Shown one piece after another: positions 39,546-64,000 of a stretch of 64,000 bases of DNA. Both the position numbers and the translations under genes were made by a program. The first letter of the stretch is position 1. Every line of letters starts with the position of its first letter. This DNA comes from Romanomermis culicivorax (lineage: Eukaryota; Nematoda; Enoplea; Mermithida; Mermithidae): the NCBI GenBank assembly GCA_963922205.1, contig CAWUHX010000033.1:992001-1056000 (forward strand). The letters run 5' to 3'. Below the pieces are notes generated by a model. It made no database searches, was not told the origin of the DNA, and saw nothing but the letters and a program-made list of their open reading frames with translations.

Positions 39546-39849
39546 AAGTTTTGCTTACATTCATTACAGTTTGTATGTTTTAATTAGCTATAGTTTGCTT
39601 GCTTATGTAGTTGGTTACGTATTTGCTTGTTATATAAATTCATACATATATTGCGCGCATATTTTTTGCATACAGTAATGTTATTCTATTTTATATAATC
39701 ATCTATTTATCTTTATATTTTACATGTGCACTGTTTTATATTGTAATTTTGATAATTATATTTAACATTTTGTTTTAAAATAATAATAAAAATCATTTTA
39801 AAAATTGTTCAAGTAAAAAAAGGTTGGTTTTTGTTGTTGTCAAAAAGAG

Positions 39850-40542
39850 ATGTCAAATGATGATGATGAAAAGTTTTATATATGGAAACATCCATTTAAC
39901 TGTATAGTTTCTGCTCCAACAAAATCAGGAAAAACACAATTTGTTATAAAACTTTTAATTTTTGCTAAAGAAATGCTTCACCCTGCTCCTGTGAAAATTT
40001 ATTGGTGTTATTCGGAATGGCAAGAAGCTTACGATGAATTAGTTCAGAAATGTTCTTATGTAGAATTTATTCAAGGTTCGCCTGATTTGAATGAACTTCA
40101 GAAAAGTAAAGATACACCTAAATTATTAATTATGGATGATATGATGCAAGAGATGAAGAATGATCAAAGTTTAACTCAACTTTTTACTAAAGGATCGCAT
40201 CATTGGAATATATCAATTATACATATAGTTCAGAATGCCTTTTTTGATGGAATGCATAAGAGTAGGATAAATGCTCAATATTTAATTCTTTTAAAAAACC
40301 CAAGCCATATATTACAAGTCCCCACACTGGCTTGACAAATTTTTCCAACTACCTCAAATTATTTCACAGAGGCGTATGAGGATGCTACTAGTAAACCATA
40401 CGGTTATTTATTAATAGATCTTACACAGACATGTCCTGAAAAATATCGACTTAGATCTAATATATTTCCCGACAATGATCACATGATTTTGTATACACCT
40501 ACATTATTCATCATTTTTACAAAAAAACTTTATACAAGTTAG
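39850..40542 (+). pseudogene. A32/FtsK-HerA-type packaging ATPase, one nonsense
   Basis: This family powers DNA packaging into capsids in Polintons and related viruses. Residues about 20-28 are a Walker A loop (APTKSGKT), about 94-101 a Walker B strand with the DD pair (LLIMDDMM). A later block GSHHWNISIIHIVQN holds the sensor Asn. Translation stops at TGA 40333-40335 (LA-stop-QIFP), and family-like sequence continues in the same frame (FTEAYEDATSKPYGYLLIDL) to TAG 40540. Length without the stop, about 230 codons, fits the family. A C-to-T change in an Arg CGA codon would explain the stop. Confidence 0.8.
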
Positions 40543-40679
40543 TCGGATCCTATTATTTTAGCAATATGATATACAGTAAATATATTTTTTTAAATACTCT
40601 CGCTGTGATTCTTTTCATAGCTGTTTTTATTGTATGGGTACAATACCCTTTTCAATTTTAGGAAAATGAAGAAATATAA

Positions 40680-41520
40680 AATGTTACAGATTTTACGATA
40701 CCAAACACAAAAAATGTTACAGATTGAAAATTATTACGGGAAAATTATAAATTACATATAACACCCTTACTACATTATTTAGAAAAAATTTTACATAGTC
40801 CTCAGAATGACGGACAATTTATGCAATTAGGAGCGTGTTTCAAAATATATATTTTCAATCCTGTCATATTTTCTTGTTGTAGTCGAACCAGTAAATTTCA
40901 AAACTTGTACATCAATGGAAGTAGATTACGATATATTGATACGATAGATTTATTACATAATCAGAAAAAAATATTATACCCTTCATCAGTCTAGTCGAGA
41001 ATTTTGAAGAGGTTGGTCATTTTTTCTATAATTCGTTTGTTTTGTGACAATTACGATGTCAGGTGCATTTGAAGTTTTTGTCAGAATGGTGCAAAATAAA
41101 GTAAAAACTAAAAATTTTATATCTCTTCTTCAACTAGTTATTAAACTATAGTATTTTCTGTTTAAGGTAAAATACTAAACAACAAACAGAAATGCAAAAT
41201 AGCTTATTTGTTTTGGACTCGTTTCTCATCCGAAGCCAAGATTTTTTACAAAGACATAGCTAAGGCATGCAACCATTTACGTCATGAAGTTGGTTTACCC
41301 ATGGGACGTAAAAAAGTTACACAATTTTGGTGTTTTGCTAGACTATTACTGACGGAGTTGGATATGGGCGAAACTCGCGCTATTTTTGTAGAAGATCTTT
41401 TTTAAAACTAGATACAGCTGATAAACTATTTTTTATGAATATGAATAACTTGTGTGCTTTTTCTAGACGTGAAGAGTTGAATATCGTCATGCAAAATGAA
41501 GCTTCATTACTATCTTAATG
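40680..41520 (+). pseudogene. unassigned broken Polinton frames
   Basis: 40740-40995 contains a disrupted frame reading LEKILHSPQNDGQFMQLGAC and onward. 41208-41405 is a 65-codon frame (FWTRFSSEAKIFYKDIAKAC), which a one-base shift extends to NEASLLS near 41518. The resemblance to a folded protein is good but I recognise neither family. They lie where intact relatives carry small virion genes. Confidence 0.4.
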
Positions 41521-41600
41521 TAATACATTAAATATTTCAATGTTTATTCATCATTTGGTCATTATTGTAAAATTTTTCTGTACTGTATGGTCTGTTTTGT

Positions 41601-41954
41601 ATGGCTTCTAGATTAAAGAAATATATTCACGAGCTCAATGTGTTGAAAAATTCAAATGGTGTTCAAAGACGTGCTTTTCTTCAACATTCTTCCCCGATTT
41701 GATCCGTTGTATATGTGAAATTTGTTTGAACATTTTGAACGGTAATATTCCTATTAATTCAAACTTAAAAAAGAAATTGGGGACACATAAATTATTGCTC
41801 AGAGGTTTAGCTGCAAGACACTAAAAAAACAAGAAAAAAAGATTTACATAATAAACATGTAAGAATGGTTCAAAGTGGTGGAGCATTTTTACCTCTAGTA
41901 CTACCCCCTTTATTATCTACATTAGCAAGTTTTGTTACAGAGAAATTATTATAG
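41601..41954 (+). pseudogene. core-type basic/hydrophobic Polinton protein, frameshifted
   Basis: The ATG at 41601 starts MASRLKKYIHELNVLKNSNG. The frame breaks after HSS near 41695 and continues shifted (PDLIRCICEICLNILNGNIP, then HKLLLRGLAAR). After further breaks in a lysine-rich stretch it ends in the third frame as QSGGAFLPLVLPPLLSTLAS. This order (helical region, RxLA, basic run, GGF-hydrophobic tail) is a pattern I recognise from small proteins encoded beside the ATPase and integrase in animal Polinton-type elements, where they resemble adenoviral core or pX-type peptides. Function is inferred. Confidence 0.6.
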
Positions 41955-41955
41955 A

Positions 41956-42765
41956 ATGAAATTTGCTAGTAAATTTGCTCTTATACCTCAGGAGGTTCTG
42001 AATAAGATGAATAACTCTCAGGCTTCTTCTTCTTCGATGAGTGCAAATGAAAAGACAGGTATAGCTAAGCAAGTTGACATGTATCGTAACGACCTAGAGT
42101 GCATTTTGAAGGATAATACATTAACACCTGAAGAACAATACAAAATGTACTCGCAACTATTTTCACAATATTTAACTTTTGAACATTAAAAGGCTCAACC
42201 TTCTACAGTGATTTTAAAACAAAAAGTTATTGATAACGAAGAAGATGAGAATGATAGTGATGATTTGAAACAAAAAGAAAAAAATTGGCTGAATGATGAA
42301 AAGTTACTTAGTGGTATTCCTAAACAGTTTAAATGCTCAGCATCTTTATTATTGGAACATGTGGGACGTAACCCTAGTATAAATGTTAATAAGCAAGGTG
42401 AAGTATTAATTGATGGAAAATTAATTGAAGGATCACATATTATTGATTTATTACATGATTTGTCTCATAAACGTTCAAAAATTATGCAAACCGTTGGAGT
42501 AGATGAGTTTGTTAATGCTTTGAAAAAATATATTGTACCCTTAGAGGCTGTAGGAAACCCTTTACATAAAATGTTATTCACTTTACCTTGGAAACTCTCC
42601 TACTATACACCTCTGGAAGAATCAGATGATCAGACAGTTAGTAGTGTCAAGTGGTTGAATAAACCACTTGTGAAAGGTGTTGATTTTTTTTCAAGTGGCT
42701 CTGAGGAAAATATCAAAGATGATTCATTCTTTAATAAAGGAAACTCGACAGAAAAGAACATATGA
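41956..42765 (+). pseudogene. Polinton conserved protein, one internal stop
   Basis: The ATG at 41956 opens a frame of 77 codons to TAA 42187-42189, then continues in the same frame for 192 more codons to TGA 42765. The first part has a Ser-rich and helical stretch (EEQYKMYSQLFSQYL). The second has acidic linkers, then a block with LLEHVGRNPSINVNKQGEVL and GSHIIDLLHDLSHKRSK. That combination occurs in proteins encoded just upstream of integrase in related elements. No enzymatic motif is visible. I do not know its role. Confidence 0.5.
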
Positions 42766-42769
42766 TGAA

Positions 42770-43925
42770 AAGTTAGAGCACCTAGACGGTATACTCCTTT
42801 GTACTAGAGTGATGAACACTTTACTTTGGAAATTATACAAAAATTTACACTGAAATCCTACAGCTTTTTCTAGTATTGAAAAATTATATGCTGAGGCTAG
42901 AAAACACCGTAAAACAATTACATGTAAAAATGTTAAAGATTGGCTTTCAAAACAAGATAGTTATACTTTACATAAACAAGTCAACAAAAAATTTTCACGT
43001 AATCATATTTATGTTACAGCTATGGATCAGCAATGGGAAATTGATTTGGCAGATATGTCTTCTTTTGCAGATTTTAATGATGGATACAAATTCATGCTTA
43101 CATGTATAGATGTATTAAGTAAATACGCATGGGTTGAACCATTAAAATCAAAACATTCAAAGAATGTTTGTGATGCTTTTCAAAATATTTTAAAAAGAGG
43201 TCGAATCCCTTTGAGAGTGCCCAGCAATAAAGGAAAAGAATTTGTCAACAAAGATTTCCAATAATTATTGAAAACTAATGATATACATTTTTTACTTCTC
43301 AAAATGAAGACATTAAATGTTCAATAGTGGAACAGTTTAATAGAACTTTAAAAACTAAATTATTTAAATATTTTACAGAGTTTACCACTTATAAATGGAT
43401 CCATATTTTACCCTCAGTTGTTTCCAACTACAATCACTTTGTTCATAGATCGATTAAGGAAAAACCTATTAATGTAGATTAAATGTAGATAAAATTAATG
43501 TAGAAAAATTATATGGCAAAGACTCTACCCTGAAAGATTATACACTAGAAAGTCTAAGATTGATATAGGAGATTACGTGTGAATTAGTAAACATAGAGGT
43601 GTATTTGACAAAGGTTATTTACCTCAATGGAGTGAAGAAGTTTTCAAAGTAAAGCATATTGTGAAGACTAGAAATCATATACTTTATAGAATTCAAGATT
43701 TGGAAGGCGAGGATATAGAAGGACGTTTTTATGAAGAAGAACTACAGAAAATTGATTTTAATCCTAATATCAAAGAATACAAAATTGAAAACATTTTGAA
43801 AACTAAACATTTACCAGATGGTCAGAATAGAGTACTTGTGAAGTGGTGGGGTTATCCTGAAAAATTCAACAGCTGGATTTTAGAAAAGCATATACAAAAT
43901 GACAATGACGACGATTACGATGAGC
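42770..43925 (+). pseudogene. Polinton retroviral-type integrase with chromodomain
   Basis: This is the DDE integrase that inserts Polinton DNA. Order: N-terminal zone (WLSKQDSYTLHKQV), catalytic core from about 43020 with the first Asp in WEIDLADM and a conserved LTCIDVLSKYAWVEPLK, the second acidic position in SNKGKEF where relatives have TDKGKEF (Asp replaced by Asn), and the Glu in IVEQFNRTLK. An SH3-like C-terminal domain ([12 protein letters not shown]) and a chromodomain ([14 protein letters not shown], near 43845) follow. Breaks: TGA 42851, TAA 43262, a shift near 43300, a small duplication at 43475, and TGA within DYV-stop-IS near 43580. Activity is not possible. Confidence 0.8.
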
Positions 43926-44251
43926 AATTTGAATTGACATATTATGTTCAACAAGATGCGCTATTATCAGAAAATTTTTCCGGGGTTTTTGCTTGTGATA
44001 CTCTACCGAAGATAGTTAAAAGACCTGGGGCTTTAATTGCAAACACCGATACATCTTTTCAAAAAGGACTCCTTCTTTCGTTTATTTCTCCTTTAGTTCT
44101 ACAGTACTATGTAATTATCTTGCACATTCTTTTTTACCCTAAGACCTGTAGAAAGCTATATAATACAGCAACAATTTTCAATAGGAGCACCACTATACTT
44201 TATGCAATTTTGTACATATTCTCTACATATCGTTTACTCATACATCTCTAA
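43926..44251 (+). pseudogene. adenain-like cysteine protease remnant
   Basis: In frame with the chromodomain, the sequence reads [15 protein letters not shown] and [13 protein letters not shown]. This is the start pattern of Polinton/adenovirus-type proteases, in which the catalytic His block (GxHW) should follow immediately. Here that block is gone and a hydrophobic substitute is read. Near the 3' end, [11 protein letters not shown] aligns to where the catalytic Cys block (CGxYCxYxxxxR) normally lies, and the Cys is missing. A protease gene normally has its own start, so its fusion to integrase may be another result of decay. Confidence 0.5.
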
Positions 44252-49527: not shown

Positions 49528-49586
49528 CTAAAGCCGAAAATGGTGTTACATAGAAATGATATACATGAGCTGTGTGCAAATTAGCC

Positions 49587-49887
49587 ATGCTAAATCTCGT
49601 TCGTTTCTTCATATTTTTCATTATCATTTGCCAAATTGCCAATTTTTTCGCATCATCAGTATCGTCATCATCATCAGGCGAAGATCATCGCCAAAACTCG
49701 ACATCGAACGATCGAAAAATTATTCTGATCATCGTACCCGGATTAGCCGATTGGCTTTTTGCCGACGGATTTTCGACATGGAAAAATTTACCGGGATTCC
49801 GGCGTTTGAAACAAAATGGCGTTCGTTCGAGTTTAGTGCCGGAATTCCCGACATTGAACGGCCCGAATTTGCTTACTTTGTTGACAG
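49587..49887 (+). CDS. ENPP-family protein, first coding exon (catalytic residues replaced)
   Basis: The ATG at 49587 is preferred over the GTG at 49572 because a clean signal peptide or anchor follows (LVRFFIFFIIICQIANFFAS, residues 4-23), then a Ser-rich stretch. Residues 45-101 match the start of the type I phosphodiesterase/nucleotide pyrophosphatase fold: IILIIVPGLADW, GFRRLKQNGVRS, then FPTLNGPNLLTLLTG. In active ENPPs the first block reads xxDGxR and the last FPTxTFPNHYxLxTG. Here the metal Asp is Pro51 and the Thr nucleophile is Asn91, with His after PN changed to Leu. The exon ends at a good donor (ACAG|GTAACT) in phase 1. Later exons, of a protein normally over 400 residues, were not found. 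Confidence 0.6.
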
Positions 49888-51190
49888 GTAACTGTAGTGT
49901 TAAAAAAATGTGTTATCTATTGTTCTTTGCTGTTTGATATTTTTCCAAAGTGGATAAATGACTAGATATGCTTTCAGTCCCTTGTGAAGTCGGAAAGTCA
50001 CGCCGTGTTTTTTTGAGTTACAGTAATATGTGAAACCGTCCATTTTTGAGCCTTTGCCCGGTGAAACTTTTGAAATCTTTCCCATGAAAAAGCTGAAGCA
50101 CTGGGTGCTTGTATGAAACCCCATTTTTTCCATAAGCCGAATTTTGCCACAGTTCCCATAAACAAGTGCCCTCTGAGAAGGTAAGCAATATTAGATGACT
50201 CGTATCTGCAATTATGCGTTTAGTAAATTCGATCTGAAATCATGTCAGATTTATTTTTCCCGATATCACGTCAGACTTATTTAACTTTTGAACAAACACG
50301 ATAGAGGAAAAAATCTTTTCTTCACTTCGTCCAAATCATCGTTTACTCGACTTTAATCTTGCTGGGGGCAGGATAGAGTTAACGTTAAAGGGTGTAAGCG
50401 ATAACTCACCTTTTCGCATACCGATTAGCGTTAACATGTTTTAGTGACCGACTTTAACATGAGTTAACGCTAACTCGCCTTTATGCATACGGCCATGAGA
50501 AGAACCAAGATGGGGTTAAACCTCTCGGGCTGGTTGCAACAAAAGAGATAATCGCGAACTTTTTTGTATGTTTGTGTGCTAAAAAGATCTGCGATTATCT
50601 CCAGCTCGGGATCATCATGTTTATTGCAGAAAATAGAACGAAAATCTTGCTTTTTGATATTAGATGGTTTTTATCACGTCATCTTCATTATTGAAATACT
50701 GAATTCATCATGTCCACTGTTTCAAAAAGGTTCTTGCATATATTATAAATGACGTAACTACATAAATTTGTACAAATAGTGTGAAGTGAGTAGAATGAAA
50801 CTTCATTTCAGTTGATGCTTAGAAATGTTCAATGTTTTAATGAATTGTTAGAGCCGGCAATCATTATCGTTATACTCCATTTCAAATGAGCATCAGAATA
50901 CAAAAAATCTAGAGAAATCCGTTAACAGGAGATGATCGTGCATCGCAAGCCAATATTTTCTCTTTTGAATTTGTAGTTCTAATTGCTACAGCCTGTCACG
51001 TGCCGCTCAATTCTCCAACGTCACGTGATCCCGATCATGCCGACATTTTGTTATTTTTTCATGTTTTGTTTATTACTCGATCATGCTTTCGTTTATTTCA
51101 TTTTTTACACATGCATTTTGCGTTCGTTTTTATGTTTTTCATGCATTTCTATGTTTCGTTTTGTTGTATTTTTATTTCTTTACAAACGCG
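49888..51190 (+). other. presumed ENPP intron sequence
   Basis: No second exon recognised. It contains a self-complementary tract at about 50360-50490 built on gttaac / gcgttaac words, and a fragment (ggctggttgcaac...gattatctcc) related to the MITE at 34862. If the gene is intact, the retroelement starting near 51.2-51.6 kb sits inside its intron. Confidence 0.35.
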
Positions 51191-51195
51191 GGCTA

Positions 51196-51345
51196 CAGTA
51201 GGCCCTTTAGCTAAAAACTTCCGCCAGTCGTGCTCCACGAGCACATGGCTATTTTTGGTGCGCTCACGCACCTCTTATCATCAAAAATTAGCGTCGTTTT
51301 TGTTACGCAAAACGACTAGCTAAGAAGTTTTAGCTAAAGACGTTC
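51196..51345. repeat. TTTAGCTAAAA inverted repeat
   Basis: ctttagctaaaaacttccgccagtcg at 51200 is mirrored by cgactagctaagaagttttagctaaag ending about 51341, forming a 150-bp hairpin. It may be a separate MITE at the border of the retroelement or part of its 5' LTR. Confidence 0.45.
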
Positions 51346-51579
51346 ATATGCTTAGCATAGGCACTGCAGCCGGCCTCAGTGCTAAACGCATGTGAATGAA
51401 AAAATGTCTATGTGCTCATAGGCATCTTCTGCATCGCGTCTAGCTGCAGAAGTTAGCTTGAGCGCCGAGAAACTCCGCCCAAGCTGCAGCTGTAGCCAAA
51501 CATGTCCTTAAAAGGACATGTTTCTTTAGTTTTTCGCTCACTTTTGGGTTCACCAAGTTCCGATTCGGTTGTTGTAACT

Positions 51580-51929
51580 TCGCGTCCGCCGCCCTGCTCA
51601 ATTTGCATATTTTTTATATTCGACTGCGTCCGCCGCCTATTATTTTAAATAAATTTGCATACCTTTGCATTTCTTACTGCGTCCGCCGCTCACCGCCTAC
51701 AGTACCCCGCTGCCCATCAGTGCCAGGTGTCCGACCGCCCCGGTTCGTGAATTAAACGTTGGAGTTTCGCCTCCCGCTCGCTCCCGCTCCCTCCCGCTCG
51801 CCGCCGCTCGCCGCCGCTCGCCGCCTAGGACGTTTGAGGATCGCATCCCCCGCTCCCAGTGCCAGAAGACCGAAAGCATCCAGGGACTTGCCGCCCGTTG
51901 CGTCGTAATCGCTTGAGAAACAGGACTAG
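51580..51929 (+). promoter_or_regulatory. GC-rich promoter-like region and leader exon of the retroelement
   Basis: Three copies of the word gcgtccgccgc (about 51588, 51627, 51681) alternate with aatttgcat octamer-like words and an AT-rich ttttaaataaatttgcat near 51645. A run of cccgctcgccgccgctcgcc units follows. The tract ends at a consensus splice donor, ACTAG|GTGAGT, with the exon border at 51929. This layout fits the U3/R and first leader exon of an LTR retroelement. The LTR edges and primer-binding site could not be fixed, because the 3' LTR lies outside the window. Confidence 0.45.
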
Positions 51930-52439
51930 GTGAGTCTTCTCAGGGGATTATTGTTATTTGTGGGTTATTTGTTGGGAAATCCTTCCTAAGTCGGTTTCCC
52001 AAGGTCTCCACAGATAAGTAGGGCCTCCACCTCTCAGGTTCGGGCTAAAAGGGGCTGTCTGGTTCATAATCGGGTCCCATAATTTAGGTCATTTTACGGG
52101 TGACCCTGTCCCCACTCTCACTGAGTAGGACTCGGGGATTGTCGCACCTAGCCTGGCAGCGTTGTCCATTACCCTACAGCAAGACCCCAAGGACAACTCC
52201 AGAGAACCAACTATAGACCTCTCTATAGCCACCATTTGCCAGGTTAGGCCCCAACGCCAACTTGGGAAGCCTGGGGAAAATGCCAGTATCCATCAGGAGT
52301 CACAGCCTATTACTCACTGTAATAGGATCAATCTGATATGGTTCACCATCAATGTGACGTCTAAAACACGGTATTACCTGATGAGATACCCAAACCTCTC
52401 CAGCTCTCCCAAGATAAACCTGTCATACACGTGACATGG

Positions 52440-52830
52440 CGTAAAATGTGACATGGCGAGGCTGGAAAATCGACCTTAAGTCTGGCACTCGCCCTTAAGT
52501 GTAAATCTTCACCCTTGGGTCGGAACTACCCCCAGGTCGGGTCAACTCCCATTTTAAGTCGGACAAGCCCCCTTAAAATCGGGTATTAGCCATCCAATAA
52601 GTCGGAGACCCCCCAAATTCGGGTTTACTGCCTAATGGGTCGGGAATGTCCCTTATTTCGGATTACCGCTACTGTAGGTCGGATACCCCCACCTCATGTC
52701 GCGTATTATTACTGTAAGTCGGAAATTTTTCCCGTGCCACCGAGAGTTATTACTGTAGGTCGGGAATTTCTCCCTGCACATCAAATTTAATTACTGTAAG
52801 ACGGGATTTGCCCTTACGAGTGATCTAAAT
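52440..52830 (+). repeat. degenerate GTCGG tandem tract
   Basis: About a dozen words of the type taagtcggg...accccc recur roughly every 28-35 bp, for example near 52558, 52601, 52637, 52677 and 52715. The tract is too diverged to give a single consensus. It lies in the retroelement leader and is non-coding. Confidence 0.5.
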
Positions 52831-53451
52831 GTGATCTATATGTGTAAATACTTATCTCATGCGTGTGTATAACCCCCTATGAGTAATAAATTTCCCCCTG
52901 AGTCGAGTTATTTATCCCCAGAGTCGTGTTAATTGTAACAGAGTTGAGTTATATATCGAGTATTCTGTATTTCTCCTCTGATTCATTCTGTACATTCTGC
53001 ATCCTTAATCTGTGTTGTAAACTACCTTATTCGGGTTTTTTCTTTTCCCTCTTCCCCCCCTCTCAAATCCTAGGTGGTATACTGTAGCCCTCCGGGTGGG
53101 TGCCATTACAGTACGCCTGTGCCCATTCCCGTACTGTAACTACAGTATACCCATACGCGGGTACTGGTATCACAGCTGTAGGGGTTTACGGCCTCTCCTG
53201 ACTGTTGGTGGTCCGTGACCCCATGATACCGTACACCCTCCACGTATGATTCTGGACGTCATACGTGGCTGCGATTTGTTAATTGTGTACAGTAATTTTT
53301 GTATGTCGGCGGAAACTGTCGGAATTGCTCACTTTTCCGGCCCCAAAATTTTACACCGACTGTTTACACATTTAACACGCGTATGTCCAACTCTCGTATT
53401 CCCCGTCTTCGGTTATTTTCTTTCCCTTTTTCCTTTCTCGGTCATCTGAGC

Positions 53452-53454
<3 letters not shown>

Positions 53455-53496
<42 letters not shown>
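53455..53496 (+). repeat. A42 homopolymer
   Basis: Forty-two consecutive A residues in the leader of the retroelement. Its length may be an assembly estimate. Confidence 0.9.
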
Positions 53497-53500
<4 letters not shown>

Positions 53501-53641
53501 CTGGTTTCCGGATGCCACCGCTACAGTATGACACCCTTACGTAAGCTCCTCTATCTTTTTCATTTCTACTTATTGTAAGGTCTGCTTCTTCTACTTTCCG
53601 GTTGTTGCATCTAGGACATAGACTTTACGGGTCATGCTCTT

Positions 53642-54680
53642 TGACGTCAGCAACGACAACGTTACGGGTTGTTATTGTTGTGTGGTTCAGCCTCACGGAT
53701 GCAACCACTGACGTCTGCAACAGCCGCTTCACTTGCTGTTGCTTTAAGGGGTGGGTAGCCCTCCGGGTTCTACTCCTGACGTCAGCAACCGACATTACGT
53801 GTTGTTGTTTAAGTTAACACTCCAGCAGTAATGACTTCTGACGTCTGCAACAGGTGAAGCCAACGTTGTTGTAACAGGTTCGGCTGGTTCTCTGCACCCC
53901 ATCTGTGACATCAGCAATGGTGACGCACCGTGTCACTATTCGAAGATGTGCAGGTCTTACGGGTGCCACATCTGACGTCTGCAACAACTGCATCTCATGT
54001 CATTGACTTAAGGTATCAGACCCTCGGTCCCACCTTCTGACGTCAGCAACGGCGTCATCACGTGTTGCTGTATACCGATAGCTGGCTTCAGGGCCCTATT
54101 GCTGACGTCAGCAATGACAATGTATCATGCTCTCGCAGCAGGAATTGAGGTTACATGATCCTATTTCTGACGTCTGCAATGGTAACATTACGTGCTACTG
54201 CAGGGGTTTGCTGGCCTTAGGCACTCACCCCTGGCGTCTGCAACTGCGACATGATACTTGAATACTCTTATCCCAGGCACCTGCAGTCAGCACCAAGGTC
54301 ATGTGTTGGTTCATACCCCTACCTTTTGACGTCCGCACCAGGTTACTGTCGGCCCTATGAGTATTCCACTTGAGTTGTAGGTGGTCGCTGGCGCATGGTC
54401 CTATCACCTACCTCTCTTGTCCAAGGGTTTGTGTGTGTCTGGGGGCTGATGCCTGGGAAACATCAGCCCACATGCATACGCCACCTGAGATGCTCACTAG
54501 CCTGCGTACTGATCAGGTTGTCCGCCCGGGTAGCGGCACTGTTGATCAGCACGTGGCTGTTTTCAAGCTTTAACTGCAGGTTTGAACGAGTTACACTCGG
54601 CCTCAGCTGGGTTGGTTGTCTGACTCGGGCAGGCAGCAGGCATTTGCAGTCGGTACTGCCTGTGTCTGACGTCTGCAAGG
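53642..54680 (+). repeat. 66-bp-period array of TGACGTCA/TGACGTCT motifs
   Basis: The core TGACGTC(A/T)GCAAC starts at 53642, 53709, 53777, 53839, 53906 (TGACATC), 53973, 54038, 54103, 54168 and 54232 (TGGCGTC), a spacing of 62-68 bp. Weaker copies lie at about 54287, 54331 and 54667. Sequence between cores is poorly conserved, while the core is kept. The TGACGTCA form is the consensus cAMP-response element bound by CREB/ATF bZIP factors. Any enhancer role in the leader is inference. Confidence 0.7.
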
Positions 54681-54699
54681 GTTCGGCAATCTTCTTGTA

Positions 54700-56123
54700 A
54701 ATTTCTTATCTAAATTCACTCATTCTCTTTCATCTCATCGAGCTGTCATACATAGATCTTCTTTAGTGTCCCCGCCGTAGTGGTTCCCAAGGGACCGCGG
54801 CACAGCCTCCGGTTGGGCCTAGAGTGTATAGGACCCCCTGTCATATTACATTCACTCGAACGCCTTCGTTAACTGGCTTAACGATGCCCGCGCTAGAGTC
54901 GCCACTGACCCAGAGTCCGCCTCCGCGGTCCACCCCCTATTAGTCATGTAAATAATAGGCACCGTTGAGTCCGCCTCAGCGAAGGTATTGAGTACGCCTC
55001 GATACATACTTTACACTCATATTCAATCAGGGACACCTTGTACCCGTGATCCCTTAGATGTTTTCGGGTGCGCCCTCAAAACATCCAGAGTATTTCATTT
55101 TAACTGACTGAGTGTGTCAGAATAGCACCCTTGGTACCCGTGCTCCTTCCCTCTTCTACTGTGTGACCTGCGAACCTCACTTCATCTCAGTGATCGGCAA
55201 ACCCGGCCACCAGCTGTGTATAATACTCCTGGAGAGTGTCCGTTCTGTTCGGAATGCGGGCTCCCATTTCGAACACGGCTGTAAGTTACTTGCGAATGTC
55301 GTCCAACACGGAACCTCCTGTATTAGTCCGTCTCACTATGCAGAGATCGCAATCGCTCCTGGCGAGTGAGGCCCGTTGCGTAACTGCGCGACCCCTTTGC
55401 GTAGCTGGGTTTGTAAATTAGTTTTATCCCTATTTATTGCTCCCTCTTAAGTTCATTTTCAGTTGACCCCATCCTTTTCACCTCATGCCACTTTATGCGC
55501 TACTCCTGGTGAGTAGGATCTTGCCGGCTACGAGTCCGCCTCGCCCCAAGGTTTGTAAACTAGTACAGCGGTCGAGCCTCCAGGAAAAATCCCTCCTGAG
55601 CGGGTTCATCCGTCACCTCATCCTTCGGCAGGAAAAACCGCCTTCATTTCTCTCTTCTTACTTCCCTCCTTCTGCCCTTTTTAGGCTATCCTAATCGCCG
55701 GGTCCATACCCCAACTCTACATTCTTGGTCGGGATCGATTCCCCCACATCTCAAATCATGCCTCTGTCCATCACGGGCGATCAGATAAATTCCCTTCTGC
55801 GTCACCCTGGTGCACTCTGATCTTGCATCTTACAATCCTATTTCATTCTAGCCCCCTTTTCGTGGTCGCTAGTCTTAAACTAGATCCAGTTTACGTCACA
55901 AACGCCGTCGCGCACGCGTTTTCCGAATTCACGCGCTCTTTCGCCGCGAATTCAAAAGTAGTATTCATTTTCACTTTACACGATAGAGACACCCCATCGT
56001 TCCTGCCGTCTCAGTACCCAGCCTGTACAGACCAGTGAGCCGCTCTCTAATCAGTTTGACCTAATTGCTTCACGGGCAAGGACGTCTGTTCTAACCACCT
56101 TACGGGAAAACGAACCCTCAGAC
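54700..56123 (+). other. retroelement leader, no supported gene
   Basis: GC-balanced sequence between the CRE-like array and gag. The gag frame is open back to 55962 but has no ATG before 56124. A 71-codon frame at 55823-56038 is in another frame and has no family likeness. A ccgtctcag acceptor-like site at 56006-56014 could join the donor at 51930 to give a gag mRNA without the long leader. Confidence 0.45.
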
Positions 56124-59100
56124 ATGAAGTCGGAAGCTGATCTCCCTTCACAGATCGAGAACAAGGTCCAAGCAGCATTTGAGAATGCTCTTGGACCCCT
56201 CAACCAAAAGTTAGAGGCCATGAATGGTCGGAGGCACCCTCCCGTGTCCAGCTTTATGGCCCCTCCCACCTTCTCCGGTGCTTTTGGTGAGTCTATCACC
56301 GATTTTATGTCGCATCTTACTCGTTTCTTTACACTCCAGGGTGTAAGCGAAACGGATCATGCGTATAAAATCGCCTTTCTGGAGTCATGCCTCACGGGTC
56401 CTGCTCTCGCCTCCTACCGGGACTTTAGCAGCAGCACTCCGATACCTACCCGCTACGAAGAGTTTACGGCTTTTCTACGGAGAGATTTTCCGGTAGGGCG
56501 CGACTCTGATCTGCATCAGCAGCTGATCCAAGATCGACTGCAGAAGCCGACAGAGTCCGCGATAGTCTACCTTGAGCACCTCAAGAGACTATCCAGGGTA
56601 GCGTATCCAGATCTCGCGACGGATGTCCGAGATTCTATCATCAAACCTATCTTTCTGCGGGGACTGAAGCCGGTCCTCCGAGATAGTATCAAGTTTAGGG
56701 AGTTCACGACTCTTGAAGAGACACTCAAGGCAGCCTGTTACGCAGAATCCCAAATCTTTCGGGACGAGATCCGGTACACTGCTCCATCTAACGCCGTTTT
56801 CTCTTCAGAACCTAAACACGCCGGATATAATCCCGATATGCCTAACAGAAGCGCAAACGGTCGTCAGAGCAACGCTCCAACGTCGTCATCCTCCGCCGAT
56901 GAGGTTCACCGCTTGAAACAGGAAATGGCCAGGCTCACGGCCCACGTAGCGAAGCTCACGGCCCAGCAACGTGCACCCGCGCCAATCCAACAGACGCCGC
57001 CTCCACAGCCGTCGACACCAAATCAGTCCGCCGGGCGACGCTCGTCGGGAGCACACCTTCAAACGTGCTCCTTCCACGGACTGTGTACACATAGCGACGC
57101 CGACTGCCGGGCCCAGCGTCCCACCGGTGCCGCTCCCGGTAACAACGCCGCTAACGGTGGTCGCTGTTATTTTTGCCGTACACGTGCCCACCCCACGGAC
57201 CGATGTGATAGGCCATGCCCTCATTGTCGTCAAGTGCGAGTGCACCGCTCAACTGCCTGTCCGCAGCGCAATCCGGCAAACACGGGTGAGAATGTCTACC
57301 AAAGTACTGGTTATTCTCCCCAGGGGACAAATGTGTATCATCAGAGGAATGGTTATCACCCTCCCAACGGGATAGGAAACCAATATCGGCAGCCCATACG
57401 TCGCAACAACGCCGTTGGGGCTACCGATGGCCCTCCTCATCCAGATCCTCTTGACCTGGATGATGAGGCACTTGCTGAACACCTGACAGATTCTTCACAA
57501 CAGTGTTATCCTGTCTGCGTAATCAGTGTTGGATTTTCAGTGGTCCAAGCAGCCCAGGTACCCGTACCGATAAATGTATCGGACATACCGCTGCCACCAC
57601 CACCACCAAAGTATGCGATGCCGGTCACCCTGGACCCCTCGACGACACCGCAGTTTGTTGGCCACGCTAACATCCTCGCATCGTATCGCATTCCTAAAAT
57701 TAAGACTGCCGAGCAAACTCCAGCCGCCAATACGACGTCTTCAGCGCCGCCGGCCCGCATCGTCCCTCCAGGACCACCGCCTTCGATCCCCACGGATTCG
57801 GCTATGGAAGTCCTCGACCAGGTCGAGCCCATGAATTTGTCAGGTATACTACCTTCTTCTTCAGGTGATCCTAGAGTAGGAACCAGAAATCTATCTCAGT
57901 CCACGACTCTATCGATTTCTTGTTCACAGCGCCATCGCCCGTCCAAGACGCGATGTTGGCCATCTGGTCAGTCGACCTGGCCAAGAAATACCCGCATTTG
58001 CCGTGGACTCTGCTCAACGAGCCATCGAATGTCGAAGCGCTCACGGCCGCCGACGTCGTGCTTGCAGCACCCGTCTCAATGCGCCTCTTACGACCCGACG
58101 TCGCCCGACGGGCACTCGAGTTCATTGCCAATGGGACTATCACCATCTCGCCCGTCGAGAAGTTCTTATTGGACGGGGAGCCATCCTCGCCTTCAGTCGA
58201 TGCCGTCCGCCGAGCAGTCGAACAGGCCAGTCGGATCCTCCTGCCTGCTGCCGCCGCTACATCACCGGCAGCAGCGCCACCTGTTGCCGCGACATCGCCA
58301 ACGAAAATGGACATTACTGCTTCCTCGCCCCCGGCAAAGGAACCCGCAAATGATCCTACACCGCCGGCAACAGCCCAACTTACTTCGTCGGCAACAGCCC
58401 AGGTTAAATCGCCGGCACCAGCCCAAACGACATCTCCGACCGCTGCGACCAAGTCGCCCGTCGTCGAACACATGGCCGTCGACGAGACCTTACGTCCGGT
58501 TAACGAAGATGTCAGCATCGTTGAGGAATCCCCATTCCCAACGGCAGTCGCCCCACGGTCGCCAAAAATCGGTATCCTCTGGGAGATCCATCCGTGCGGT
58601 GGATTGGTCCTCGATTTCCCCGGCCAGGAACCAATCTCGTCCGACAGCGACGAAGAAGAAATCTGACACTGCCCCTCAGGCCAGATTTGTGAAATTGAGT
58701 GAACACTTACAAATTACGTTTGTACAGTTGTTTTTGACAATAAAATTGACCTTGGTAGCATCACTGTTTCTAGGGGTGAGTTTGTCAGCACCGGCGGCTC
58801 AGTATCAATTTTGCGGTCTCTCAAGAAGCGGACATCCACTTGAGTTACCCCAGCGTGTAGAGTGTAAACCACCGCAATCTTCATGGAGCCCGCGGCGCAT
58901 GAATGTTACGGTGTATGTCCCTAGCTCAGACCCGATTACAGCCAGAGCGTGGAAATGCACATTGCGCTCCCTCAAAGTCTGCACCAACACTGGTTTCTTC
59001 GGCTCTAGGGGCATCACTGCAGACGTCATCACCACTCAGCACTTAGCGCCTGCGGCATGCACGCTAGCACATCGCACTAAGATGTTTGGTTCACAAAAAC

Positions 59101-62100
59101 TTGTCGGCGTTCGCCCTGGCTTTTATAGCACAAACCAAACATTGGAAGTGATGTACGAATGGTGCTGCAGCGACGTCTGCAAGACAGTGACTAACCTCTT
59201 CATCGAGGAGGGACAAGTCGCTTCGTGGGACGGCACTACGGCCCTAAGCACCTTAGGCGATGTAGGTGGATGCAGTCCCACTGCAGGCCAGTGCACTACT
59301 CTAGACGGGGTCATTGTCTGGCCTGCACAAAACTTCACGGCGCGGTGTCATTATCACCCCAAGGGAAATTACACTGCGTCTATGTCAGGGAACCACGTCA
59401 TCATCGATGATCTGCAGGTTGCCCTTAAGATCCCGGGAAACTCCCGCGTCTTCCAACTGTGCCCAGAACTACGTTCCACCACAGTCCGGACGGATCAGGG
59501 TCTTCTCCTTCGCATCCACGGGAGATACAATTTGACCCAAAACTTGTTCAGAGTGGCAACGGACAGCCGTCCCGATCCTGTCAATGCCAAACTGAACTAT
59601 CTGGCTCAGCAGATCAAGGAGTCGGAAATTAACGGTTTCCGGTTCACGTGGCTTGAGCTCTGCTCTCACGCTCAACGCTATCTTGATCTGACTTGGCAGT
59701 TGCTTCGCTTCGACCCTACCCTGGGTGCCCGGGCATTCCTCCAGAGGAATGACCTGACGGCGGAATTCACAGGCGATGCGCTGACAATATGGCCGTGTCA
59801 GAAGGTCAACGCCACCTACGTTTACCACTCGTACCGGGTGGGGAAGGTTTGCTACAAGTACTTACCTGTACAGGTTGGCGGCACCATCTACTTCGCCACC
59901 CCCGGTGGTCCGGATCTCATTAAATCTAGCCCAATTGTGCCGTGTCATCACCACTTTACAGGGATTTTCCGAAATCGCTCGGGCTGGTTTACTGAGTCTG
60001 GCGCGGTCCATGTGAGCCACATCCCACTGGAACTCTTCTGGAAGCAGCGCTTCAACATCACTCACTTTGAGGCACCGGCGCTCTTCCATGACCAGTTGGC
60101 GATGACCCCTTCAAACTTTGCCTTCTTTAAACAGTACGTTTACAAGACTGAGCAAATTGAAGCGGTACTCAACCGGCTGGTAAACTTTACCGCTGGTCTA
60201 TCCCTGCAACCAGACGCCATTTACCAGGCCTTTGCAGGGGTAGGAACCGACATCAAGGCCTCTCTGGAAGGTGTCGGTTTGGCAGCAAACCATGTTATTA
60301 CGGGTCAACAACACACCCTCGCCCAGGGCTTGCATGCTGTCCTGAGCGGGCCGGTCCAGTTGATCTTTAACATCCTAATTACCCTGACAGTGCTGATCGG
60401 TGCCGGATACCTTGCCTATCTTGGTGTATCTTATTATCTCAGCTACCGTCTGCGGAGCAAACAGGTCAGGTTTGTTAGCCGTTTCTCCCCGTTGGGTCTT
60501 TACCGTAAAGTCCAACGCTGGATCGGTTTTCACTACGTGCAAAACGATGTGCCCTCCCAGCTTGACCGAATCACACCGTGTTTCGTCGTGCTGCTGGACA
60601 CCAAGGAAACTCCTGCTTTCCTTGACACGGGTTGCCCACGCACTATCATTAGCCAACGCCTTCATAAGGCCTTGGCTAAAGAAAGTCCGAAGGCGGTCAT
60701 GGCGTTCCAGCAACATCACGACTTTAACCCATTGATGAGCATCAATGGTAAAGCCGTTCATACCATCCTTTCGGGACCATATGAAATCATGTTGCCCGGA
60801 AACCGCCAGCCGAACACACGGATCGATGTACATCTCCATGTGTGCAAGACTACGTCTCCCTTCTGGGCACCTGTTGACCTCATACTCGGACTGGACTTCT
60901 TAGAACAGTTCAAGAACATTATGTTTGACTACCAACGTAATGTTTGTCGGCTGGACGCGGTAGAATTACCCCTCCTGCTGACCACGCCGGAGATTGACCA
61001 GATCGACCCCTGGTGGGAGAACACCCGTGCTCTCTCGCGAAACTCACACAGGTCGGGATCACGATCGCGGTCCAGGGCTTCGTCCATCTCTCGGCCACAC
61101 TCACGGGCCTCCTCAGTTGCCTCATCACGTGGGTCAACTAGGGGATCCCGGGCCTCTTCTAGACGGGCAAGTCGTCATCTGTCGACCTTGCACGGGTCAG
61201 GTTGCCCTCGACCTCCGCCTGGAACCTCTCCAGTTACGCTAGAGAAGGGCCGATACCGTGAGCCAAGTGATTCAGATGCTCCGACATCACCCGTGCCAAA
61301 CGCGCCTCCGCTATCGGACACCGAGGTTGAATCACTAGGAGCTACTCAGAGTCCGAAGGATCACTCAGACCACGTACTAACGGTGCAGGATGAGTCCACC
61401 CTTCTGAATGACCCGGAACCCTCCGTCGGATACGCTCTAGTAGGTCTTCTACGTCGTACGGGACTACCGATTCCAAAGCGGTCCGGTAAGACCAAACATG
61501 CTAGTGGTGCCACCACACCTGATTCCGGTCATGTGGTCACTGCTTTTTACCCAAATGATATTCGGACACCCCATATCAAAGTTCTCCTCAACAACTGGGT
61601 AGAAGCAAAGGCACTGGTCGACACAGGAGCTGTTTTCTCACTCCTGGACCACAAGTTAGCGGCCCAGCTGCCCAACTTGTCACTATCACCAACCAGGGCC
61701 CGCCCTATCGCAGCCAATGGGTCCCCGATCCCACTGCTAGGAGCAGCCTACATCACAGTTACAGTGGCTGATGTCTCTGAACGGATTCAGGTCCAAATAC
61801 AGGAGAACTGTTCAGCAGAACTGGTCCTTGGAACTAACTTCCTTGGCCGGTTCAATTGTGTCAGCTTGAACTGGGAGAAATCCTTCCTCCAGTTCAAAGA
61901 AAACAGAATCCCCTGTGACGGTCTCATCCACAGCCCACCTTCTGCCCGCGGCGCCTTGCCCCTGAAGGACTTGGTAATTCTGGAGCCTCGCTCCCTGACA
62001 CGATTCACTGTCCCTGTTCCACCAATCTATACGAACGTGCCTGAGGTGGCCTTCTTTCCGAAGCACCTCACCGGATCTCAACGACACGTATATTTTGCTG

Positions 62101-64000
62101 GAAGCGTCAGTACCGTGACCAACGGTCACATACCACTTCAGGTAGTTAACCCGAGTACTCATTCCGTGGTTCTCTACCCGCACACGACCATCGGTCATGT
62201 GCAGATGCATAGTGAGCCCTCACGGGAATCACCGGTCGACTCAGACACCGTCCTCGATCGTCAGTGGGTCGAGGCCAATGCTGTAATCTCACCGGACATC
62301 TCCCCTCGGGACCGGGCAGCCTTACTCGATCTGCTGGTTGCATACACCGACCTTTATGCTCTTGATGAAAAGGACACAGGTTCCACTGATCTCGTCCAGC
62401 ACGAAATCAGCACGGGCGATGCCCGCCCAGTCCGCCGTTTCCCTTACCAGTCCTCACCTAAGGAAAAGGATCTCATCATGCAAGAGGTCAAGGCGCTCCA
62501 GGAGAAAGGTATTATTCGGCCAAGCACGTCTCCGTGGGCTACTAATACTGTCCTGGTGCGCAAGAAAAACGGCTCTCACCGTATGTGTGTTGACTTTCGT
62601 GGTCTTAACGAGGTCACGAAAAAGGATGTCTACCCTCTCCCACGGATAGATGACATTCTCGACACACTCAAGGGTATGAAATATTTCACTACCCTTGACC
62701 AAGCTAACGCTTATTGGTCAATCCCGATTGCCGAGGCGGATAAGGAAAAGACGGCTTTTAATACGCCTATTGGACTTTACGAATTCAATTATTTGCCTTT
62801 CGGTTTATGCAACGCGCCAGGGACATTTCAACGCCTTATGGACCTCCTCCTTACTGGAATCCAATGGCGCACGGTTCTGACTTATCTCGACGACATTTTG
62901 GTGTTCGGGAACTCTCACACCCAAATGCTTGAGCGCCTGGCAGATGTGTTCGCCCGTCTTCGCCGGGGTGGAATGAAGCTCAGACTGAGCAAGTGCAAAT
63001 TCTCGCACTCAGAGGTAGAGTACCTAGGCTATCGCATCTCACAGAGCGGCCTAGAACCTGACCAAGCCAAGCTGGCCGCCGTCCAAAACCTACCCATTCC
63101 ACAAAACGCCAAAGACATCAAGTCCTTCCTAGGCCTCGTGTCTTACTACAGGCGTTTCATCCCTGGTTGTGCCCGGCTCAGCGAGCCACTCACCAAGCTC
63201 TTACGGAAGGAAACTACTTTCCTGTGGTCAAAACCTCAGCAGGAGGCGTTCGATGAACTCCGCCGCCTGCTGACCAACCCCCCTATCCTGCGCCATCCGG
63301 ACTTTTCGAAATCCTTTATCCTTCAAACTGATGCGAGTATTTCGGGGATAGGAGCGGTTCTTAGCCAGTTAGACGAACGTGGATACGACCATCCTGTCGC
63401 GTACGCCAGCCGAGGGTTAACAGCGGCCGAGAAAAACTACTCCATTACAGAACTGGAGACTCTCGCTGTTGTCCATTTCGTCAAGCACTTTCGACCATAC
63501 CTCTTCCAGCACGAGATGGTCGTTCAGACTGACCATACCGCGGTCAAAGCAGTGTTGGAGAAGCCTAACCCCTCTGCTCGGATCGCTCGGTGGGGACTCG
63601 CGCTCGCCGAATTCAAACTGACAATTCGGCCGCGAAAAGGTCAGTCTAATGGTAATGCCGACGCATTATCACGCCTGCCGGATCCTAACTCCCTCACCGG
63701 TCAGAGTATTGATGATACTCCCCTTTACAGACCTGAGGGGCATGTTATGATGATCACCGATGGTGCGCAGCACCTGGCGCGATCCAGGACCTTGACCGAT
63801 GGTGTGCAGCACCTGGCGCGTTCAAGTAATTCAGCACCGATCACTGTTGGCGCGGAGCGCCCGGTACGATCAGAGTTTTATGCCGAGATATCCGTCGGTG
63901 CGCAGCACCCCGACCTTTTCGCTGCTCAGCTGGAGGATCCGGAGTTAGCCGACATCATTCGCTCTCTTAAGCCTCTGGGCGACCAGAATGATGTGCGAGG
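56124..64000 (+). CDS. Ty3/gypsy gag-env-protease-RT-RNase H, single long frame (right end cut)
   Basis: One frame stays open from ATG 56124 ([14 protein letters not shown]) to the window edge, at least 2,625 codons. Order by residue: gag matrix/capsid-like part with [20 protein letters not shown] (about 50-250); Cys/His region with CX2CX4HX4C from Cys348 and a CX2CX5HX4C after it; Pro-rich linker; Arg/Ser/Gln-rich stretch (about 595-850) that overlaps another ORF; envelope-like glycoprotein (about 867-1425); aspartic protease 1 (DTG at 1501-1503); Arg/Ser repeats (about 1630-1690); aspartic protease 2 (DTGA at 1833); reverse transcriptase with YLDD at 2254-2257; RNase H with TDAS at about 2402. 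Integrase should follow beyond 64000. Whether it is translated as one polyprotein or split by splicing or frameshift is not shown by the sequence. No stop or shift was seen. Confidence 0.88.
57953..58666 (+). CDS. overlapping ORF of the retroelement, unknown product
   Basis: In the frame -1 to gag, ATG 57953 opens 237 codons to TGA 58664-58666; the frame is free of stops from 57875. It looks protein-like: a folded-looking start ([34 protein letters not shown]), then an Ala/Pro/Thr/Ser-rich linker, then an acidic end (SSDSDEEEI). The frame of the long ORF over the same DNA reads only Arg/Ser/Gln/Pro-rich sequence, as a shadow would. It may be a separate gene, a gag C-terminus reached by -1 frameshifting, or an exon joined at the acceptor tttcttgttcacag (ending 57929). 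No known domain. Confidence 0.5.
58725..60450 (+). CDS. envelope-like glycoprotein domain of the retroelement
   Basis: Within the long frame. A hydrophobic segment resembling a signal peptide ([17 protein letters not shown]) begins about 58750, preceded by the acceptor-like tttgtacag at 58723. About 530 residues of Cys-rich ectodomain follow with many N-glycosylation sequons (NVT, NQT, NFT, NYT, NLT, NAT, NRS, NIT). A single membrane span ([20 protein letters not shown], about 60360-60420) and a basic cytoplasmic start (YRLRSK) close it. This is the architecture of a class of viral surface glycoproteins seen in env-bearing retroelements of worms. There is no ATG at the signal peptide, so expression needs splicing or polyprotein processing. 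Its place between gag and protease is unusual. Confidence 0.65.
60540..60990 (+). CDS. aspartic protease domain 1 of the retroelement
   Basis: Within the long frame, directly after the cytoplasmic side of the envelope span. It has the retropepsin landmarks: [12 protein letters not shown] (active Asp at 60624) and, about 85 residues later, [13 protein letters not shown], followed by a final strand [10 protein letters not shown]. The spacing and hydrophobic-ILG-x-DF block match retroelement proteases. It is separated from the second protease by an Arg/Ser-rich linker ([12 protein letters not shown], about 61045-61190). Confidence 0.65.
61560..61910 (+). CDS. aspartic protease domain 2 of the retroelement
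   Basis: Within the long frame. [13 protein letters not shown] places the active Asp at 61620, and [13 protein letters not shown] about 70 residues later is the second landmark. It stands in the usual protease position just upstream of reverse transcriptase, with a linker of about 170 residues between. Both proteases keep their catalytic Asp. Confidence 0.75.
62340..63690 (+). CDS. reverse transcriptase and RNase H, Ty3/gypsy type
   Basis: Within the long frame. The RT starts with the primer-grip-side block [18 protein letters not shown] and continues through [45 protein letters not shown] and the catalytic YLDDILVF (62883). The connection has [16 protein letters not shown]. RNase H has [14 protein letters not shown] (Asp at 63330), [16 protein letters not shown]-like spacing, [11 protein letters not shown] and NADALSRLP. 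This is typical of Metaviridae (Ty3/gypsy). All core residues are intact. Confidence 0.92.
63738..63915 (+). repeat. short internal repeats between RNase H and integrase
   Basis: Four diverged copies of a 36-60 bp word, best seen as GGTG(C/T)GCAGCACCTGGCGCG at 63761 and 63800, with weaker forms near 63846 and 63896. They translate to [24 protein letters not shown] and GAQHPDLF. They form a tether between RNase H and the expected integrase. Confidence 0.6.

Follow-up and report, generated by a model that had tools for sequence, protein, structure and literature searches.

An envelope gene between gag and protease in a clade of Ty3/gypsy proviruses from the nematode Romanomermis culicivorax

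A stretch of 64,000 nucleotides (nt) from the mermithid nematode Romanomermis culicivorax (contig CAWUHX010000033.1, positions 992,001 to 1,056,000 of the forward strand; the whole stretch is referred to here as the window) carries a Ty3/gypsy (Metaviridae) provirus of about 16.3 kilobases (kb) that runs past its downstream end. The element belongs to a clade with the gene order gag, env, protease (PR), reverse transcriptase (RT), RNase H (RH), integrase (IN). In the textbook order of env-bearing retroelements and retroviruses, gag-pol-env, Env is made separately. Judging from the sequence, the genomic RNA of this clade would be translated into a membrane-threaded Gag-Env-Pol precursor in which Env is a captured class III glycoprotein and PR-RT-RH-IN lie behind its membrane span. 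We give this reading a probability of about 0.6; splicing routes are possible alternatives, above all for the lineage of the window copy.

Position and nature of env

Frame 0 is open over 56124..63998, that is for 2,625 codons. The codon spanning the window end is no stop, and the frame extends into the next 4 kb of the contig to end at 65261, giving 3,046 codons in total. Pfam domains follow one another in the order Ty3_capsid, Monjiviricetes_fusion (2e-14), aspartic protease, RVT_1 and RNase H. The location of env between gag and protease, first proposed from the letters of the window alone (hereafter the sequence-only reading), is borne out by this domain order, by other copies in the genome and by sequences from outside it.

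The signal segment, sequons and single membrane span ascribed to Env in that reading were all recovered (Table 1). A PF24664 match, at 2e-14 in the window Env, is present in 6/6 Env rows of alignment A5, and a gB profile matches 4/6 of these rows. The fold, too, is of class III; a profile search did better than phmmer, whose best match among solved structures was a bacterial adhesin at 0.02. No F-type (baculovirus-like) Env family appears among the five families listed for the Env rows. A first structure model reached a mean pLDDT (predicted local distance difference test) of 39, too poor for use. By family and by fold, Env belongs with the class III glycoproteins of the mononegavirus/chuvirus/gB type, and its fusion activity is predicted. 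A net positive charge follows the membrane span in 8/8 rows.

PF24664 matches were found at no fewer than 68 places in the genome, the window's own copy not included (68 of 2,320 candidates were scored), and 13 of these 68 listed env loci belong to open frames no shorter than 2,000 codons. Twenty of the 68 were examined as 9-10-kb loci and searched for domain order with window-derived queries; 3-kb junction stretches of L029-L031 were added. DNA comparison separates lineages A (L011, L012, L014, L017-L021, L024 and L026), A' (L009), B (L013 and L025), C (L010, L015, L022, L027 and L028), D (L016 and L023) and E, the window, the three junction stretches representing a B copy (L029), a D copy (L030) and a C copy (L031). 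Lineages are 63-68% alike in DNA where aligned, D aligning with no other. The order gag-env-PR-RT-RH recurs on one strand, with capsid upstream of env in 17/20 loci and PR, RT and RNase H downstream in 19/20, 19/20 and 18/20. The loci lacking a capsid match are L016 and L023, which have gag-like frames upstream, and L010, whose alignment with its lineage starts at the nucleocapsid part; L014 gave no PR, RT or RNase H match and has a frame-shifted protease motif, and L027, with no RNase H match, looks rearranged. Five lineages besides the window's have env between gag and pol.

Comparison of the frame across copies gave a mixed picture. Seven of the 20 loci (L017-L021, L025 and L026) are open from capsid through RNase H, while the others have stops or shifts somewhere; capsid and Env share one open segment in 8/20 (L011 in addition to those seven), Env and PR in 14/20. 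L017-L021 and L026 are open up to the frame end near the 3′ long terminal repeat (LTR), for 2,514-2,578 codons, and integrase was shown in L017. The LTRs of these six lineage-A copies are 100% identical over the 703-715 nt compared, suggesting that the lineage moved very recently; being nearly identical, the six are not independent of one another. With 9 nt between the pol stop and the 3′ LTR in lineage A, an env would not fit in its usual downstream place. L015, from lineage C, is open from upstream of the capsid match to a stop inside the membrane span. Breaks in single loci are read as decay of single copies, because no lineage is without a copy whose frame continues unbroken from Env into protease.

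Selection was measured in frame 0 by pairwise pN/pS (the ratio of nonsynonymous to synonymous differences per site). For lineage C, L015 compared with L028, L022 and L010 gave 0.30, 0.38 and 0.38 in the gag-env linker, 0.15, 0.12 and 0.18 in Env, 0.13, 0.13 and 0.11 in PR, and 0.12, 0.10 and 0.06 in RT; values against L027, which has no aligned linker or capsid, were 0.18 (Env), 0.15 (PR) and 0.10 (RT). For lineage A, L017 compared with L014, L011 and L012 gave 0.35, 0.26 and 0.30 in the linker and 0.23, 0.23 and 0.09 in Env, with 0.38 and 0.30 in PR and 0.35 and 0.15 in RT where these were aligned. Comparison of A with A' yielded 0.27 in Env, 0.26 in PR and 0.75 in the tail. L010 and L009 entered these comparisons without an aligned capsid. 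In the other two frames the linker gave 0.96 to 1.98, except for one pair, where 18 differences yielded 0.44 and 5.43. Purifying selection on the gag-env linker, Env, protease and RT in frame 0 is shown in lineages A and C, and the env gene passes in both of them the check on selection that had been proposed for it.

The same arrangement is found outside this genome. P0007 (2,797 amino acids (aa), from a 9,331-nt contig, source 'lgn') and P0008 (2,490 aa, from a 10,413-nt contig, source 'jgi') each hold gag, env, PR, RT, RH and IN, so ordered, in one protein; PR is weak in both (0.0078 and 1.8e-4, respectively, both below the Pfam cut-off). An NCBI protein named for Aphelenchoides avenae, P0006, comprises gag-env-PR, its 1,607 aa being encoded on a 4,884-nt contig, and P0005 holds Env-PR-RT-RH. 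Scans of the viral contig collection with P0002 and P0005 yielded no relatives. Trees of RT (9 rows) and of Env (11 rows) both group the window with B and D with P0008, and join C to the pair of A and A'; in the Env tree the window-B and D-P0008 pairs are moderately supported and the other forks unresolved. The two trees concur on the pairs they resolve, and this concurrence, together with the outside single-protein homologues, indicates that the gag-env-pol order is older than these lineages.

These data bear on the idea that Env came to lie in frame accidentally, in a dead copy, and is functionless in that place. In its favour, the window copy, with about 3.5% divergence between its LTRs, is older than the newest insertions. 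However, five more lineages have the same order, as do three gag-containing sequences from outside the genome, and the order is accompanied by purifying selection. The identical LTRs of six copies speak against the idea too, as do at least 39 further close copies of the linker that show no net length change (best 40 matches, window included). Chance capture is, in our estimation, exceedingly improbable.

The end of gag and the synthesis of Pol

In the window lineage, gag changes frame before env is reached. Codon bias favours frame 2 over frame 0 at about 57850-58660, frame 2 being open over 57875-58663; this test is not proof alone, as it also prefers frame 2 in short stretches (58675-58825 and 60925-61075) where frame 0 is undoubted. 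L033, a diverged and decayed copy (three aligned blocks, 67-76% DNA identity), has a frame switch identical to that of the window and 46% protein identity over 100 aa of the gag tail. Tails were compared in 13 copies of the window lineage, namely the window and 12 of the at least 39 other listed copies. The 67 variable sites distribute 13/38/16 by phase, with an excess at frame-2 third positions (p=2.4e-4), and 39/69 variants are synonymous in frame 2, where about 30% were expected. Taken together, codon bias, the L033 match, the third-position excess and the synonymous variants place the Gag tail in frame 2. Frame 0 at 57930-58663 is ruled out as the element's selected coding sequence by codon bias, L033 and the 13-copy variation. 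The single unbroken frame of at least 2,625 codons put forward by the sequence-only reading is literally present, yet selection in the window lineage does not act on it as a single coding sequence from end to end, the gag tail being selected in frame 2 with a stop of its own. Likewise, the claim that env sits in the gag-pol frame holds for its co-linearity with pol, and with gag in other lineages (A, B and the outside sequences), but does not make the window lineage's product simply one polyprotein.

The two frames are connected exactly by an 86-nt stretch, 57844-57929, that is a candidate intron. Its GT and AG are kept in 13/13 close copies and in L033; the donor is weak (CAG/GTATAC, 5 of 9 against a donor consensus). 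Two other accounts of the switch were considered. A private indel is ruled out, given that all of the 40 best matches out of 901 linker candidates, the window among them, extend over exactly 1,301 nt (copies with indels may fall outside these) and that the switch is common to L033. Programmed -1 frameshifting at a canonical heptamer is ruled out as well, none of the form X XXY YYZ occurring in 57800-57960, although sites of another kind may serve.

None of the lineages seen has a shared stop between Env and PR. Pol must therefore be synthesized fused to Env, except where splicing takes env out of the RNA. Env would in that event be an optional cassette, its removal giving an ordinary Gag-Pol and the unspliced RNA giving the rest. 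Gag, Env and PR lie in one frame in lineages A and B, an excision of suitable length could preserve that frame, and short introns do alter the product of a single-frame element in BARE (PMC3735527). Yet gag and linker of L017, L015, L025, L016 and the window contain no donor scoring at least 7/9 against a donor consensus (weaker donors may be present, the candidate 86-nt intron itself having one), and unspliced RNA would still yield Env-Pol. Furthermore, the Env-PR linker has a motif common to A, B, C and P0005 (ALLELA/ALLQLA/ELLQMA), as expected of translation as a unit. Excision of env thus appears highly unlikely.

Alternatively, Gag could come from one RNA and Env-Pol from a spliced RNA with a start codon in a leader exon, on the pattern of Env in insect errantiviruses, and an acceptor just 5′ of the signal segment; Pol would still be an Env fusion, with Gag outside it. 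Gag of the window lineage has its own stop, an acceptor-like TTTGTACAG stands at 58727, in phase 0, in 13/13 copies of that lineage, and an in-phase ATG at 52696 is open up to the leader donor at 52714. P0005 begins at Env. Env splice junctions are treated in insect elements (PMC12992720), and a spliced product is known from Cer1, whose genome lacks a gag-pol stop (PMC10309623). However, two out-of-phase leader ATGs (52635 and 52646), open to the donor in other phases, precede the one at 52696, and a single in-phase ATG could be accidental in a leader of this kind. Nor is the acceptor common to lineages: at the codon that reads CAG in the window, A (9 copies), B (3) and D (3) have CAA, which rules out an Env acceptor conserved at the signal segment across lineages. 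Both acceptors suspected earlier, near 57929 and 58731, exist, and it is the second to which this objection applies. Finally, in A and C the gag-env linker is under selection in the frame that the two genes have in common, something that a noncoding intron would not need, and P0006, P0007 and P0008 are continuous from gag into env. We regard separate synthesis of Env-Pol as unlikely.

In A, B, C and E, 36-132 codons separate the signal segment from the closest in-frame ATG before it. This distance and the CAA at the acceptor codon (A, B and D) favour, for lineages A and C, translation from the gag start through Env into Pol, with a product predicted to be membrane-threaded. For the window lineage both a Gag-only RNA, made through the 86-nt intron, and an Env-Pol RNA from the leader exon (donor 52714, ATG 52696) are possible.

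The reading that we prefer, one membrane-threaded precursor, would operate as follows. Gag-Env-Pol would be translated from genomic RNA and thread the membrane of the endoplasmic reticulum, with Gag cytosolic, the Env ectodomain lumenal and PR-RT-RH-IN cytosolic behind the Env membrane span. Signal peptidase and the viral protease would then free the parts, and the anchors of Env would in this way deliver Gag and Pol to the budding membrane. In the window lineage, removal of the 86-nt intron at the gag end would give a Gag-only product, unspliced RNA staying open into Env-Pol. That Env's signal anchor tethers Gag while its span tethers protease and polymerase in one precursor, and that the 86-nt intron sets the Gag : Gag-Env-Pol ratio in one lineage, seems to us slightly better than an even bet. 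The layout resembles the capsid-envelope polyproteins of positive-strand RNA viruses and, if true, would mean that packaging of Pol and Env is coupled by covalent linkage. The membrane-threaded polyprotein imagined at the outset fits the hydrophobic segments; where it falls short is the window lineage, with its Gag tail in another frame and closed by its own stop.

Several observations weigh against a single precursor. To begin with, Gag of the window lineage ends in a different frame with its own stop (TGA 58664). Only 15/69 tail variants are synonymous in frame 0 (about 30% expected), indicating no amino-acid selection there. Frame 0 is open through the tail stretch in 12/13 copies; such openness arises in 1.2% of synonymous frame-2 codon permutations, and in 0.01% when codons are drawn from env and RT usage, and is thus weakly above chance by the permutation (P=0.012; 1 stop seen vs about 3.4 expected from 69 random changes). 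Stops are not depleted in frame 2 either (2 variants seen, about 1.9 expected; 2/13 copies have a tail stop); their being as frequent as without selection suggests that part of the variation is later decay, after insertion. The leader donor-like site with its in-phase ATG and the acceptor at 58727 permit a spliced Env-Pol RNA. Retroelements need an excess of Gag (PMC3735527), and a single precursor would yield equal Gag, Env and Pol. In 12/20 genomic loci, including three that lack a capsid match, capsid and Env do not share an open segment, and L016 has an in-frame gag-env stop, absent in L023 and L030. The D copies look decayed (pN/pS 0.83 and 0.61 in capsid, 0.56 and 2.25 in Env), lineage B has too few differences for pN/pS, and a short tail segment of L017 vs L011 gives 1.75 on 7 differences. 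An in-frame Met lies 4 codons before the signal segment in D (L016) and 11 codons before it in P0008; the corresponding segment of L028 falls under the hydropathy cut used for signal-type segments, and that of P0007 has a charge of +4 after vs 0 before. Lastly, P0005 is without gag and starts just after the signal segment, its contig holding about 2 kb more of unplaced sequence, and P0004 is a stand-alone 536-aa Env without a span.

Classification and other features

The RT-RNase H part finds its best solved matches in the Ty3 chains 4ol8 (7.2e-91) and 7q5b (1.2e-90), the following entry scoring 2.3e-58. No BEL RT is among the 60 of 205 solved-structure matches inspected. Metaviridae features found in the element are the Pol order PR-RT-RH-IN, LTRs, a Ty3-type capsid and an RT-RNase H nearest Ty3. 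Insect errantiviruses such as ZAM have a Ty3/gypsy backbone, as here. The element is not classed as an errantivirus because two defining features of that group are absent: env lies between gag and PR instead of downstream of pol, and Env is not F-type. The Belpaoviridae (Atlas-type) feature of an Env at the C-terminal end of the polyprotein is absent as well.

Table 1. Features of the provirus (window coordinates; aa, residues of frame 0)
Feature	Position	Strand	Remarks
5′ LTR	50994..52453	+	TGTCAC...GTGACA; 96.5% identity to 3′ LTR over 1,469 columns
3.7-kb leader preceding gag	52454..56123	+	begins TGG; donor-like site 52713/52714 with in-phase ATG at 52696
gag, frame 0	56124..57843	+	Ty3_capsid match ~56292-56738, then Cys/His-rich nucleocapsid-like part
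Candidate 86-nt intron	57844..57929	+	TCAG/GTATAC ... TTCACAG/CGCC; connects frame 0 to frame 2
gag tail, frame 2	57930..58666	+	terminal acidic stretch, TGA at 58664; frame 0 also open, without amino-acid selection
Env signal-type hydrophobic segment	58728..58784	+	aa 869-887; closest upstream in-frame ATG 73 codons off
Env ectodomain	58785..60359	+	525 aa; 9 sequons; PF24664 match ~59580-60017; class III fusion glycoprotein
Env membrane span	60360..60416	+	aa 1413-1431; basic stretch after
PR1, extra aspartic-protease-like block	60570..60968	+	LDTGCP ... ILGLDF; missing from other rows of alignment A4
PR2, retropepsin-type protease	61581..61850	+	VDTGAV ... VLGTNF; Pfam
Reverse transcriptase (RVT_1)	62556..63038	+	Pfam; closest solved structure Ty3 RT
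RNase H	63225..63614	+	Pfam
RNase H-integrase spacer	63615..63998	+	H2C2 and rve in same frame past window; frame end 65261
3′ LTR	65824-67288		just past window end

PR1, between Env and the main protease, barely matches PR2 (0.001 over 23 residues). The protease active-site motif is D-C-G, not D-T-G or D-S-G, in 11 copies of lineages A and A' (L009, L011, L012, L014, L017-L021, L024 and L026), which include the six with identical LTRs; the other 9 fetched loci have DTG or DSG. In P0007, residues 500-555, between the zinc knuckle and the signal-type segment, match an RNA recognition motif (RRM_1, 6.2e-07).

The TGG at which the leader begins is presumably the usual start of a primer-binding site, and TGACGTC[TA]GCAAC-like motifs are repeated at 53692-54340. 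No target-site duplication is evident at the LTR ends, and 559 nt separate the pol stop from the 3′ LTR. A tRNA scan and an Rfam scan of the window were both empty. Elsewhere in the window, a Pox_A32-type ATPase, an rve integrase and a chromodomain occupy separate open frames at 39817-44251, read as remnants of a Maverick/Polinton-like element, and an open frame of phosphodiesterase/nucleotide pyrophosphatase type (PF01663) lies at 49569-49937, just upstream of the 5′ LTR. On contig C180 of genome G000, three env matches (places 404, 8769 and 17134) with 8,365-nt spacing and one internal TGA each suggest a tandem array of one damaged copy.

Relation to known systems

Our literature search found no element with env between gag and pol or protease; most subscription journals and bioRxiv lay outside it, and absence in print is unproven. 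A conserved, recently active clade with env in this position, in frame with pol, indicates that the gag-pol-env order is no necessity. It raises the question of how a protease and RT made behind a membrane span are delivered, and how Gag excess is kept up. It also adds the capture of a class III Env on a Ty3/gypsy backbone, datable and traceable in other genomes.

A near parallel is Atlas virus (Belpaoviridae), found in Ancylostoma ceylanicum, in which a single polyprotein of 2,828 residues without internal stops covers gag, pol and env (PMC9094657). Like six copies of lineage A, it is a nematode LTR provirus with identical LTRs and with gag, pol and env in one frame. In Atlas virus, however, Env is last and class II (phlebovirus-like) and the RT falls in Belpaoviridae (PMC9094657), whereas here Env is second and class III, with a Ty3-like RT. 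Anakin of mosquitoes is likewise an LTR element with a captured chuvirus-type glycoprotein, but its backbone is BEL/Pao; in Roo, Tas and Cer-7 the envelope-like gene is described downstream of the polyprotein (PMC7642597). Insect errantiviruses such as ZAM share with the present elements a captured viral Env; theirs is of F-type (baculovirus) and forms a third reading frame, and the splice junctions of env have been investigated (PMC12992720). Troyka elements are described as having no envelope (PMC12440569).

For the handling of gag, two systems offer parallels. Cer1 of C. elegans is also a nematode Ty3/gypsy element with no gag-pol stop, and its spliced product shares gag exons (PMC10309623). 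In BARE, a single-frame element of the Copia group, alternative splicing of a short (104-nt) intron with a CAG/GTAT donor, located close to the gag end, leads to Gag only; its experimentally shown donor and the candidate donor of the window start alike (CAG/GTAT). BARE differs in being a plant Copia element, in whose description an Env is not a feature, and its splicing is experimental whereas that proposed here is inferred (PMC3735527). A single-frame polyprotein that includes Env is not new, as Atlas virus illustrates (PMC9094657); what is new is the place of Env within it.

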